A stretch of DNA of 64,000 nt from an uncultured Bacteroidota bacterium (GTDB taxonomy: Bacteria > Bacteroidota > Bacteroidia > B-17B0 > Aurantibacillaceae). The stretch's first letter is position 1. Each line of letters starts with the position of its first letter. Below are positions 1,333 through 5,024 of the stretch, one piece after another. The notes under the pieces were generated by a model. That model saw only the letters and a list, made by a program, of their open reading frames with translations, was not told the DNA's origin and made no database searches. Made by a program: the position numbers and the translations under genes. The DNA is taken from NCBI GenBank assembly GCA_937873155.1, contig CALMVZ010000003.1, positions 1 to 64,000 of the forward strand, read 5' to 3'.

Positions 1333-2085
1333 ATGCAAAAAAGCGTTTTTCTTGTTTTTACCCTGTTAGTTTTCTTGTCCTGTAAAAAGGATCCTGAGAT
1401 CAAACAACCTGAAATTGTTGTTACTAATGATGTTGATGTGAATGTTACCAATGTTGTTGGAGCAATGCCTCTTGCGCTGAATACACAAACTTATATTAAT
1501 GCTAACCAGGATACATTCACGGTATCCTTGTTTAAATATTATATCAGCAACATAAGATTATACAGGCAGGATGGTTTTATTTTTGAAGAAGCGGAGAGTT
1601 ATCATCTGGTATCAGAAGATGATAGTATCAGCAGGAATTTCAGAATAAAAAATGTTCCCGTTGGGAATTATACAGGTATCGAATTCATTATAGGTGTAGA
1701 TAGTTTGCGGAATTGCAGCGGTGCACAGAGTGGCGCGCTTGATCCATTGAACGATATGTTCTGGGATTGGTCGCAGGGATATATTTTTGCAAAATTGCAG
1801 GGAACTTATAGTTATAATAATTTAAGTTACACACATCATGTGGGTGGTTTCATCGGACAGTGGAGTGCTATTGTAAGATCCAATCCTACTCTTGGCAGTA
1901 ATACTTTAGTTGTAGGAACAGCTCATTCCCCGAAAATTTTAATGAAAGCGGATGTTCTTGAGTGGTTCGTGAATCCGACTGTGATAGATCTTCAGGGTTA
2001 TGCTTCGTTGGCCATTGGTAAAAAGTCTCATGAAGTAGCCGAGAATTATGCGGATATGTTCTCCGTCTCATCAATTCAGAATTAG
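1333..2085 (+). CDS. MbnP-like copper-binding lipoprotein
   Basis: 250-residue lipoprotein: a hydrophobic signal ends at a lipobox (FLSC, lipidated Cys17) followed by KKD. The body matches the MbnP-like family: FKYYISNIRL near 67-76, GVDSLRN at 121-127, GALD, and a Trp-rich MFWDWSQGY at 142-150. In Methylosinus, MbnP is a periplasmic copper protein in which the partner diheme enzyme MbnH oxidises a conserved Trp to kynurenine, creating the copper site. The partner gene follows directly (stop at 2083-2085, next ATG at 2088), so function as a copper chaperone or store is a reasonable inference. Metal binding is not proven by sequence. Confidence 0.8.
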   Translation: MQKSVFLVFTLLVFLSCKKDPEIKQPEIVVTNDVDVNVTNVVGAMPLALNTQTYINANQDTFTVSLFKYYISNIRLYRQDGFIFEEAESYHLVSEDDSISRNFRIKNVPVGNYTGIEFIIGVDSLRNCSGAQSGALDPLNDMFWDWSQGYIFAKLQGTYSYNNLSYTHHVGGFIGQWSAIVRSNPTLGSNTLVVGTAHSPKILMKADVLEWFVNPTVIDLQGYASLAIGKKSHEVAENYADMFSVSSIQN

Positions 2086-2087
2086 TG

Positions 2088-3122
2088 ATGCGTATTTGGA
2101 TAGTTTATATAGTCTTGTTTGTCTTAATTTCGTGTAAAAGAGATGCTGAGATAATTGAACCTGTATCTTCAACTCCGGATACATATGCTCCTGTTATACC
2201 TGCCGGCTGGCCAAATCCTGTTTATGATTTTACGGGGAATGAAGTTACTTACGATAAATTTACTTTAGGCAGACATTTGTTCTATGAGCCAATGTTATCG
2301 GTTGACAGTACAGTTTCGTGCGGGAGTTGTCATATGCAAACTTTTGGTTTTTCTAACGGGCCAAGCCACGCGGTTAGTCATGGTGTAAATGATCTGGTTG
2401 GTAAGCGGAATTCACCTGCATTGTTTAATCTGACATGGCAGACTAAGATCATGTGGGATGGGGGAGTAAGTAATTTGGAGAATCAGCCAATAGGCCCTAT
2501 TCAAAATCCTATTGAAATGAATTTGAGTCTGGGAAATGCGCTGACAAGGATAGCAGCATCTCCAAAATACAAAGCATTGTTTGAGAAAGCTTATGGTGAT
2601 ACGGTTGTGACATCGCAGCGCTTTTTGAAAGCATTTGCCCAGTTCATGGGATTAATGGTGTCGTATAACAGTAAGTATGATAAAGTAAAGAATGGTAATG
2701 ATGTTTTTACAACGGCCGAAAATAACGGATATGCAGTTTTCAAGAGCAAGTGTGCTTCATGTCATAGCGAGCCTTTATTCAGCGATTATACTTTCCGTAA
2801 TAACGGGATACCGGTTAATTCTTACCAGGATAGCGGCAGGTATAGAATAACATTAGATCCGAATGATATTTATAAGTTTAAAGTTCCATCGTTAAGAAAC
2901 CTGGCGTTCTCTGCACCTTATATGCACGATGGAAGGTTCAATACACTTGCGCAAGTTTTAAATCACTATTCAATGGGGATAGCGCCAATGCAAAATTTAG
3001 ATCCGTTATTAAGCACCGGCATTCCACTGAACAACCAGGAGAAAAGTGATCTGTTAAACTTTTTAGCTACGCTTAACGATTATACTTTCATTAACGATAC
3101 CCGCTTTAAGGAAATACATTAA
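2088..3122 (+). CDS. MbnH/MauG-like diheme cytochrome c peroxidase family lipoprotein
   Basis: About 344 residues. Signal sequence with a lipobox (LISC) predicts a lipid-anchored periplasmic protein. Two c-type heme sites are visible: CGSCH near residues 78-82 and CASCH near 222-226. Other family features are GKRNSPALFN, MWDGG, IQNPIEM and KFKVPSLRNLAFSAPYMHDG. The family includes bacterial diheme cytochrome c peroxidases, MauG and MbnH; the upstream MbnP-like gene favours the MbnH role (post-translational Trp oxidation) over peroxide detoxification. ATG 2088 is chosen; a GTG at 2085 overlaps the upstream stop and is the alternative start. Confidence 0.85.
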   Translation: MRIWIVYIVLFVLISCKRDAEIIEPVSSTPDTYAPVIPAGWPNPVYDFTGNEVTYDKFTLGRHLFYEPMLSVDSTVSCGSCHMQTFGFSNGPSHAVSHGVNDLVGKRNSPALFNLTWQTKIMWDGGVSNLENQPIGPIQNPIEMNLSLGNALTRIAASPKYKALFEKAYGDTVVTSQRFLKAFAQFMGLMVSYNSKYDKVKNGNDVFTTAENNGYAVFKSKCASCHSEPLFSDYTFRNNGIPVNSYQDSGRYRITLDPNDIYKFKVPSLRNLAFSAPYMHDGRFNTLAQVLNHYSMGIAPMQNLDPLLSTGIPLNNQEKSDLLNFLATLNDYTFINDTRFKEIH

Positions 3123-3167: not shown

Positions 3168-3548
3168 ATGAAAAATCTTAAATACATTGTTCTGTTCATT
3201 CTGGCTTTAAGTTTCTTTGGCTGTAAGAAAAATCAATTAGGAGGTAAATCGAACATTAAAGGAAAAGTAATGCACCATGAGACTCCGATCCCGAATGCAA
3301 GGGTATATATAAAATTCAACGCAACTGAATTCCCGGGAGAAGATGTAAGTGTTTATAATACGTTTGTTGATGCTGATCATAACGGTAATTTTTTGATCCC
3401 GAATATCTACCGCGGTAAATATTATTTCTATGCTGTTGGTGTTGATCCTGCGATCGGAATCACTAATAATATTGTAAAAGGCGGAATAGCCCTTAAAGTG
3501 AAAATGCTTAAAGAAATTACGGGATTTGAAGTTCCGGTGGTTGAATAA
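3168..3548 (+). CDS. Small lipoprotein with carboxypeptidase-regulatory-like (Ig-type) domain
   Basis: 126 residues. Signal peptide with lipobox (FFGC, then KKN) predicts an outer-membrane or periplasmic lipoprotein. The rest (NIKGKVMHHETPIPNARVYIKF... DADHNGNFLIPNIYRGKYYFYAVGVD, quoted in part) has the pattern of a carboxypeptidase D regulatory-like beta-sandwich: GKV, PIPNARVYI, GNFLIPN, GKYYFY. Such domains are structural or ligand-contact modules; no enzyme residues are visible. It lies between the MbnH-like and TlpA-like genes on the same strand with its own candidate promoter. A role linked to the copper pair is possible but unsupported. Confidence 0.65.
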   Translation: MKNLKYIVLFILALSFFGCKKNQLGGKSNIKGKVMHHETPIPNARVYIKFNATEFPGEDVSVYNTFVDADHNGNFLIPNIYRGKYYFYAVGVDPAIGITNNIVKGGIALKVKMLKEITGFEVPVVE

Positions 3549-3587
3549 ACCATGTAACTTATCATATATTCCTGCGTTATCAGTTTG

Positions 3588-5024
3588 ATGCCACACAATT
3601 TTAAAACGATCCTGCTTTTAGTGTTCCTGCTAGGCGGGATCTTTTGTTTTTCACAGAATGTTAAGATAAGAGGCAAGGCCCATTCTTCACATAAGGGCAA
3701 AGCCATTAGCTTGTTAGCATACAGTGATCTTATCACGTATACCCGCGTTCGGGAAGCGACTGATACTATAGGTGATGATGGATATTTTGAGTTACAACTG
3801 CAGGTCGATAACACCCAGCCGGTACAATTGCAGATCGATAATTTATTCGGCAAACTTTATATACAGCCGAATTATGTTTACGGCGTTACTTATCCCGGAT
3901 TAGATTCAACACTTGACATAAGGGGAGGAACAGAGACCAGTATCGATATCGGGATCATTTCGGGTGATACAACTGAACTGAATACATTGATCATCGATTT
4001 CAATAAAGTATACAATTTGGTTTTTAAGAATGCAGAGACACAATTCTTAAACAGGACCCGTATCTTTCAGAAACTCGATACAGTAAAAATGATAAGTAGT
4101 TTCAGATACAAAAAGAACAAGAACGCTTATTTTAAAAGCTATATTGAATACAATATTGCTGAACTTAATTCGAATGCTTCGAGGAGCAAAGCTTTCCTGT
4201 CCTCAAATTACCTGCTGAATAAACCTGTTCAATCGGAGCAATATGAATACATGACCTTCTTTAATGCTTTTTTTAAGGGATATCTTGAAGCGTATTCTAC
4301 TGGAAAAGCAGGCGAGAACATCCATCATTTGATCAATACCACCGGACAATACAAAGACATAAAAGCGTTTGTGAAAAATGACCCATTGCTGGCAAATGAT
4401 ACTTTATGTGAACTGGTGCTTATTAAAACTTTCTGGGATTGTTATTTCAGTCCGCAATACGACAGGGGGCAGGTAGTAGCTATTGTTGAACAGTTCTTTG
4501 AGGCAACAAAGATCCCTGCACATAAAAAGATAGCGGGAAATATTTTGCAAATAGCAAATCAATTAAGTGTTGGTTCTACGGCACCGGTATTTTCAGCCAC
4601 TGATCGGGCCGGAAAAATGTTCAATCTTTCAGATATTAAAAAACGATATATCTACCTGAATTTTTTCTCTACCAAGGACATAGGAAGTATGAAGGAAATG
4701 CCGAAGCTTGCTGAGTTGGTTAAGAAGTATGGGGATAAAGTGGTATTTATTAGTATCTGTACCGATGATAGTCTGAAAACCTATAAGAATTATCTAAAAG
4801 CCAATCCAAAATACAATTGGACCATTTTATTCAATAATTCGGTTCCAAAAGGGAGTACGGCCCGCGACCTGTATAATGTAAAAGGATTACCTGCCTTTTT
4901 CTTTATTAACCAATTCGGGAATCTGGCTCAATCGCCCGCCAAGAGCCCAACCCAGGGTTTTGAGTTCAAGCTAAAGGCGCTGTTCAAGCCTAAGAAAAGC
5001 GATACCAAAATAGGAATACGTTAA
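3588..5024 (+). CDS. TlpA-like thioredoxin-fold protein lacking the CXXC motif
   Basis: 478 residues, exported (signal peptide ending near FCFSQN). The N-terminal part (about 25-120) resembles the DUF4369-type beta domain common in Bacteroidetes TlpA proteins; a helical middle follows; the C-terminal 150 residues form an AhpC/TlpA thioredoxin fold beginning GSTAPVFSATDRAGKMFNLSDI. Where a redox thioredoxin has WCxxC, this protein has STKDIGSMKEM, with no Cys. The cis-Pro loop (KGLPAFFFI) is kept. It is therefore probably not a thiol oxidoreductase and may be a binding or scaffold protein. ATG 3588 is preferred over a TTG at 3585. Confidence 0.75.
   Translation: MPHNFKTILLLVFLLGGIFCFSQNVKIRGKAHSSHKGKAISLLAYSDLITYTRVREATDTIGDDGYFELQLQVDNTQPVQLQIDNLFGKLYIQPNYVYGVTYPGLDSTLDIRGGTETSIDIGIISGDTTELNTLIIDFNKVYNLVFKNAETQFLNRTRIFQKLDTVKMISSFRYKKNKNAYFKSYIEYNIAELNSNASRSKAFLSSNYLLNKPVQSEQYEYMTFFNAFFKGYLEAYSTGKAGENIHHLINTTGQYKDIKAFVKNDPLLANDTLCELVLIKTFWDCYFSPQYDRGQVVAIVEQFFEATKIPAHKKIAGNILQIANQLSVGSTAPVFSATDRAGKMFNLSDIKKRYIYLNFFSTKDIGSMKEMPKLAELVKKYGDKVVFISICTDDSLKTYKNYLKANPKYNWTILFNNSVPKGSTARDLYNVKGLPAFFFINQFGNLAQSPAKSPTQGFEFKLKALFKPKKSDTKIGIR

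Follow-up and report, generated by a model that had tools for sequence, protein, structure and literature searches.

Two adjacent genes near the start of a contig from an uncultured Bacteroidota bacterium encode an MbnP-like lipoprotein and an MbnH-like diheme lipoprotein, which together belong to a divergent Bacteroidota subfamily of MbnP/MbnH that is widespread and not an isolated oddity, and which probably build a kynurenine-containing copper site at the membrane. Copper sites with a kynurenine made by an enzyme are known from a small number of characterised proteins of methanotrophs. The pair lies in a window of 64,000 nucleotides (the whole stretch of DNA that was analysed) forming the start of contig C3 in a host genome of 4.85 Mb and 39 contigs, and it is tied to the MbnP/MbnH family by homology and fold, by the residues that are conserved, and by operon structure and co-inheritance. 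The features discussed below are collected in Table 1.

Table 1. Coordinates of genes and motifs at the MbnP/MbnH-like locus, numbered from the first letter of the window.
Feature	Position	Strand	Evidence or remark
mbnP-like lipoprotein gene	1333..2085	+	250 aa; ORF, PF20243, TIGR04052 score, 7l6g match of the model
Met142-Phe-Trp144-Asp-Trp146 (MFWDW)	1756..1770	+	aligns with MAWNW of 7l6g
His169, candidate copper ligand	1837..1839	+	aligns with His of VHVG in 7l6g
mbnH-like diheme lipoprotein gene	2085..3122	+	345 aa; start at GTG 2085 or in-frame ATG 2088
First heme motif CGSCH (residues 79-83)	2319..2333	+	sequence
Second heme motif CASCH (residues 223-227)	2751..2765	+	sequence
Tyr295	2967..2969	+	alignment with Tyr of 6e1c
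Small lipoprotein, our 'LPx' family	3168..3548	+	conserved GG, HH, second GG
TlpA/ResA-like thioredoxin-domain protein	3585..5024	+	PF13905 and PF00578; syntenic neighbour

The first ORF possesses a lipobox up to Cys17 (FLSCKKDPE), a GVDS sequence at residues 121-124 and MFWDW at residues 142-146. It scored 167.1 bits against the Pfam MbnP model PF20243 (curated cut-off 27) and 42.7 bits against the NCBIfam MbnP equivalog TIGR04052, below the cut-off of 140; TIGR04052 matched 51 of 51 sequences of our alignment A2 at E ≤ 0.001. Single-sequence phmmer searches of the PDB returned chance matches only, and profile search and alignment linked the protein to 7l6g, MbnP from Methylosinus trichosporium (M. 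trichosporium), at E 0.001. An AlphaFold2 model built with a 51-sequence alignment as input had a mean pLDDT of 93.2, and with this predicted structure Foldseek returned six PDB chains at E ≤ 0.001, every one from 7l6g, while VIA-align gave 7l6g a Z of 16.9 (rmsd 2.9 over 203 residues) and the second entry 5.2. The ORF is an MbnP-family protein with, as modelled, the MbnP fold. The four-Cys motif named in the 7l6g PDB record is missing from it, as Cys17, the predicted lipid attachment site, and Cys128 are its only cysteines.

The second ORF also has a lipobox up to Cys17 (LISCKRDAE) and is a diheme MauG/MbnH-type enzyme, with two CXXCH hemes and, judged from alignment, a Tyr at the second-ligand position. 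It scored 174.2 bits against PF03150 (cut-off 25.6) and stayed below the NCBIfam cut-offs for both MbnH (TIGR04039; 213.3 bits, cut-off 362.85) and MauG (TIGR03791; 185.4 bits, cut-off 443.85). The PF20243 and PF03150 scores therefore put the identity of the pair far above chance, and its failure to reach TIGR04052, TIGR04039 and TIGR03791 places it outside the curated equivalogs. A structure search with the enzyme model ranked 6e1c first (TM 0.80); next in order of E-value came MauG 3l4m (0.72), with the peroxidase 3o5c (0.71) after it. TM-scores for this model did not separate MauG from the peroxidases (about 0.7), and only 6e1c stood out. 6e1c is a copper-homeostasis MauG-like protein, and its title in the PDB agrees with that of a 2019 MbnH paper to which PMC12607021 refers. 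By sequence the top PDB match was 3o5c with 142.4 bits against 135.6 bits for 6e1c, the alignment spanning residues 50-342 for 6e1c and ending at residue 294 for 3o5c.

Both heme motifs retain their Cys, Cys and His in all 114 paired relatives, Tyr295 is Tyr in 105 of the 114 and Trp124 is Trp in 93. The peroxidases 3o5c and 2c1u have Met in place of the 6e1c Tyr, and the window enzyme, having Tyr295 there, lacks the Met at the electron-transfer heme that is a trait of bacterial cytochrome c peroxidases. From the alignment Tyr295 is expected to be the second axial ligand of a six-coordinate heme; in MauG and BthA that heme has Tyr-His coordination (PMC6405878). A preliminary description of this DNA had asked whether the enzyme aligns with true peroxidases instead; the single best PDB match by sequence is indeed the peroxidase 3o5c, and because 6e1c ranks first by fold and the key ligand is Tyr, the objection does not hold on balance. 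His99, in an SHGV motif (window 2379-2381), lies close to the loop that bears the distal His in peroxidases. It is conserved in 88 of the 114 paired MbnH relatives, 6e1c has Ile there, and it is possibly a distal heme ligand, which would distinguish the subfamily. Its equation with the peroxidase distal His, suggested by the pairwise alignment with 3o5c, is doubtful, as the multiple alignment offsets it by two columns.

The profile alignment (E 0.001) paired Trp144 with the leading Trp of WxW in 7l6g, with the Met and His also aligned. A 2021 PNAS paper reportedly gives Met, His and solvent as the copper ligands of MbnP, with kynurenine close by. Met142 and His169 are candidate copper ligands, and Trp144 is expected by analogy to be the kynurenine precursor. 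Several claims of the preliminary description agree with these results: a WDW/GVDS lipoprotein does directly precede a CGSCH/CASCH diheme lipoprotein, each protein is predicted from its lipobox to be lipidated, and the pair is MbnP/MbnH-like, which the present analysis supports by fold, by the Met-x-Trp-x-Trp and His residues and by a Tyr where two peroxidases have Met. The observation of the pair is hence confirmed, and its interpretation as a membrane-bound modification system is partly supported.

Residue conservation was counted in 80 relatives found by HMM search (84 MbnP places less two contig-edge fragments left 82, and the 80 over 200 aa were used), where W144 was present in 80, M142 in 68, W146 in 67 and His169 in 67. 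The 82 MbnPs of the G-numbered genomes came from this HMM search and so carry no WxW selection bias, whereas WxW conservation in the 80 named loci is biased because the search pattern contained WxW. Across 166 sequences the Met-Trp-Trp-His set was present in 132, among which 106 had MbnH within three genes and 26 had no MbnH within that distance. A Met-Trp-(Trp/Met)-His set was kept in 113 of 123 MbnPs within three genes of MbnH compared with 26 of 43 others (Fisher p 8e-6, kinship left in), which fits a Trp/Met/His site dependent on the enzyme. W144 occurred in 166/166 sequences, counting a few MWFG-like ones with Trp forced into the column by the aligner.

Several MbnP classes could be recognised by their motifs. 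Seven MbnPs of the MAWPxxMGGGYHF class, or close to it (L085, L093, L095, L098, L103, L107 and L108), lack WxW, having changed the second Trp and retained Met, Trp and His, and all seven adjoin MbnH genes with divergent N-terminal regions. In a class with MWFG or a similar motif, Gln or Lys replaces His (L100, L104, L105, L106 and, in part, L110); these genes lie near a small CX4CH-motif protein with no Pfam match, MbnH is absent, and two genomes of the class, G035 and G039, have no MauG-family match. Another MbnP-like gene with MWFG or a related motif and Gln or Lys for His was seen at L114:6812-8523. A MYWxW class of MbnP-MbnH (L063, L073, L074, L075 and others) has operons with a YHYH-protein gene (PF14240 for one family member) alongside genes that resemble, by eye, those for ECF sigma factors, anti-sigma factors and Spy.

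The mbnP stop overlaps the mbnH start (TAGTGATG, 2083-2088), and the median MbnP-MbnH gap over 111 pairs was 0 nt. In a set of 41 genomes (the window's own and 40 relatives) 37 had MbnP and 35 had MauG-family genes. None of the four MbnP-free genomes, one of them only 78% complete, had a MauG-family match, and G035 and G039 had MbnP-family genes with no MauG-family match. Co-occurrence gave a Fisher p of 0.00015, which rose to 0.018 when each family of the outer set was represented by a single genome; both values are rough because the genomes are related and some are incomplete. A MauG-family gene lay within 1.5 kb downstream of 57 of the 84 MbnP matches in the 41 genomes. A scan of 84,980 species genomes recovered at least 505 confirmed relatives, from which the best 80 were kept; these include Chitinophaga, Hymenobacter, Pedobacter, Dyadobacter, Taibaiella and others, and in the best 80 of the at least 505 loci MbnH was no more than three genes away for 63 of 84 MbnPs. 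MbnP and MbnH trees correlated (r 0.75, 0/2000 permutations, 111 of 116 pairs), a correlation that linkage alone could explain.

Linkage is not universal. G017 carries its MbnP gene on contig C1 and an MbnH gene, followed by an LPx lipoprotein gene, on contig C6, and the unlinked MbnH of G015 has paired MbnHs as its nearest tree neighbours. Among the three MauG-family proteins of its own genome, the window enzyme is the sole one whose nearest neighbours are paired MbnHs. This genome has a second MbnP, on contig C26, flanked on both sides by HMA-domain genes and near CopA-ATPase-like and multicopper-oxidase-like genes (by eye); MbnH is absent there, and the His169 position is Asp. At the start of the contig (window 1-430), upstream of an FAA-hydrolase gene, repeated short palindromic stretches such as AATCCCTAAGGGATTT were observed.

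Lipidation of the window MbnP and MbnH is predicted from their N-terminal sequences. Among relatives, 55 of 111 pairs had a match to a simple lipobox pattern in MbnP as well as in MbnH, with the MbnH count inflated because a few heme motifs fit the pattern (5/72), and this indicates that predicted double lipidation is common and not universal. The sequence C-X-K-(D/E)2 acts as a lipoprotein surface-export signal, according to PMC5080379; it is complete in 8 of the 79 lipobox MbnPs of pairs and in 1 of the 72 lipobox MbnHs, the latter a rough count with 5 of the 72 being heme motifs. Surface export of the window lipoproteins was set aside, as the signal is just partly present in them (CKKDPE, CKRDAE).

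Downstream of the pair, the LPx lipoprotein matched no Pfam family above cut-off and is probably the third member of the unit. LPx genes lay within five genes of MbnP, on the same strand, in 26 of 156 loci. Contig C7 of the window's own genome carries an LPx gene with no MbnP; a leader gene and a barrel-like gene of the CACC type come before it, and HMA-like and P-type-ATPase-like genes lie upstream of that cluster (by eye). Membership of the TlpA/ResA-like protein in the unit is uncertain; 16 of the 156 loci have its gene no more than five genes from MbnP, some of them loci with no MbnH.

Related loci encode further neighbours of MbnP, the most frequent being a small leader protein, mostly of 120-150 aa, with an N-terminal hydrophobic segment, a CxN..P..CxGKC motif, three Cys and a C-terminal PP. 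Of the 156 loci, 32 have the leader no more than five genes from MbnP; for a CDICGC barrel-like protein the number is 28 and for an SCO-like protein five. The leader gene is absent from the window; the copy in its own genome is the one on contig C7 (L192:5531-5896, G000:C7), with LPx and with no MbnP. A CDICGC barrel was looked for in the window genome and not found. A model of the N-terminal half recovered 74 leaders from 73 loci, and PP occurred in the last 12 residues of 73 of them against 29 of 1527 other proteins (15/287 at 90-170 aa); the loci behind this count and the MbnP-distance counts were mostly found by the full-length model, including the C-terminal PP, so that the leader set is partly selected for PP. 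C-terminal PP was present in 106 of 107 distinct leader proteins, FHPP or FRPP in 69 and His or Arg before PP in 84, and none had a RAPP-like sequence. The linker columns of the 107 proteins averaged 20% identity, and the distance from Cys to PP was 61-73 residues.

In a draw of genomes across the phylum the leader was present in 62 of 158. MbnP lay within 600 nt downstream of 18 of 70 distinct leader copies, and 50 copies had no MbnP in the fetched stretch, which was often short; several of these 50 precede TonB-receptor-like or barrel-like proteins (by eye), and in G011 a leader gene lies ahead of a TonB-receptor-like gene. The leader family adjoins copper-related genes in many Bacteroidota genomes.

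These leaders resemble the copper-sensing, DUF2946-like leaders CutF/CruR in being small, apparently exported proteins with a Cys motif and a near-C-terminal PP, encoded upstream of copper genes (PMC9426467, PMC9973294), and differ in having no listed PF11162 match, mostly [HR]PP and no RAPP-like sequence. PF11162 (DUF2946) was matched in 0 of 41 genomes and was unlisted at E ≤ 10 for all 15 leaders scanned, a search in which HMMER filters drop many weak matches; homology between leader and DUF2946 was accordingly without support. CutF-like proteins were counted in Bacteroidota at 40% after normalisation and 19% without (PMC9973294), so a wholly new leader was dropped as a claim and the kind is already known. 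The word MbnP is absent from the main text of PMC9973294, and we found no report, in the open-licence papers searched, of this PP leader family heading MbnP operons. RAPP/RGPP leaders of copper genes are reported missing from Bacteroidota in PMC12992588. Regulation headed by a leader, together with the third partner, is a context worth following, and the leader is the most interesting lead.

No MbnB-family gene (PF05114) was found on the window contig, which bears out, for MbnB, the earlier remark that no methanobactin biosynthesis gene is visible. The single PF05114 (MbnB/TglH/ChrH) match of the genome, L286:1462-2298 within the locus L286:196-3708, lies on contig G000:C27 in a separate operon, so that the MbnP/MbnH locus lacks the MbnB-family gene of a methanobactin operon. 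In that locus a Cys-rich possible precursor (repeated GEGKCGEKK) lies upstream of the PF05114 gene, a DUF2063-like partner and a DoxX-like gene follow it, and an ECF-sigma-like gene is found upstream (by eye). This operon resembles those of the bufferin type, for a copper peptide. The bufferin name occurs in PMC13038864. A 2013 paper described MbnP/MbnH pairs in bacteria other than methanobactin producers, with the genes side by side and the lack of methanobactin genes normal for the family (PMC3621798), so that the occurrence of such a pair here is not new.

Compared with M. trichosporium MbnP (7l6g) and 6e1c, the window pair has in common the fold, the Met-x-Trp-x-Trp and His residues and two hemes with Tyr, and differs in that both are predicted lipoproteins below the equivalog cut-offs, an LPx gene lies downstream, the four-Cys set is missing and the contig has no MbnB-family gene. 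CorA/CorB and MopE/SACCP of methanotrophs offer a second comparison, with a copper(I) protein, kynurenine formed from Trp and a co-transcribed diheme peroxidase-like protein (PMC3912023); CorA differs in using two His. MauG of Paracoccus denitrificans (3l4m) and BthA (6nx0) share the diheme fold and the Tyr-His heme (PMC6405878), but MauG acts on pre-methylamine dehydrogenase and the window enzyme is far under the TIGR03791 cut-off.

By analogy with characterised relatives, Trp144 is probably oxidised and copper probably bound. The MbnH-like enzyme would be anchored in the envelope next to its substrate MbnP and would use peroxide and its two hemes to convert Trp144 to kynurenine, which may then complete a copper(I) site with Met142 and His169. 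MbnP would hold copper or hand it on at the membrane surface, where the small lipoprotein probably works with it.

Alternatively, the diheme protein could simply reduce hydrogen peroxide at the membrane, as an ordinary reductase, and MbnP could be a lipoprotein for copper or another metal with no need of Trp oxidation, the two sharing an operon as both answer envelope stress. We consider this unlikely. Peroxidase 3o5c is the best PDB sequence match, MauG and the peroxidases are level by TM-score, some MbnP genes have no MbnH nearby, and His99 (88/114 paired relatives) could be a distal ligand, all of which such a reductase would accommodate; it is at odds with the Tyr, in place of Met, at the second heme, with 6e1c as top fold match, with the lack of any MauG-family match in the four MbnP-free genomes of the 41 and with the first Trp being present in 80 of 80. 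It is very improbable that the enzyme modifies MbnP otherwise, for instance by hydroxylation or by a MauG-like Trp-Trp cross-link within WxW, to yield a redox cofactor in place of a copper site. MauG was second by E-value in the structure search and most members keep the two Trp (W146 in 67/80), but the MbnP fold match is MbnP 7l6g itself, and the seven MAWPxxMGGGYHF sequences swap the second Trp as Met, the first Trp, His and MbnH all stay, indicating that a two-Trp cofactor is not general.

In another reading, which we regard as rather unlikely, the unit is no buffer but a sensing or uptake accessory that handles copper in or out of chelates which outer-membrane receptors take up, and it could not work without the leader protein and the beta-barrel seen at related loci. 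Neither of these is present at the window locus, the leader of this genome sits on contig C7 with LPx and no MbnP, and a search of the genome found no CDICGC barrel; such an accessory is nonetheless suggested by the leader, beta-barrel-like (CDICGC) and SCO-like genes that flank MbnP in relatives and by the leader gene ahead of a TonB-receptor-like gene in G011. The pair may also be part of something larger. It is conceivable, though we hold this tentatively, that the pair is the core of a Bacteroidota envelope copper module in which the leader (CxN..P..CxGKC, mostly [HR]PP) senses copper during its synthesis, ribosome stalling at PP sets the expression of MbnP, MbnH, LPx and the CDICGC barrel, and MbnH is shared, being able to serve MbnPs encoded elsewhere in the genome as well. 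The parts would then be dispersed in the window genome, where MbnP-MbnH-LPx lies in the window, leader-barrel-LPx on contig C7 and the second MbnP in the copper cluster on contig C26.

If this subfamily performs the same chemistry as its characterised relatives, the kynurenine copper site would be common in Bacteroidota, including cultured genera, and the cultured carriers Chitinophaga, Hymenobacter, Pedobacter and Dyadobacter would allow genetic tests. Genomes with unlinked MbnH and MbnP genes may serve as natural experiments, and so may those classes of MbnP in which the Trp/His set is lost and MbnH is missing. The leader offers a testable regulatory hypothesis in a phylum reported in PMC12992588 to be without RAPP/RGPP copper leaders.
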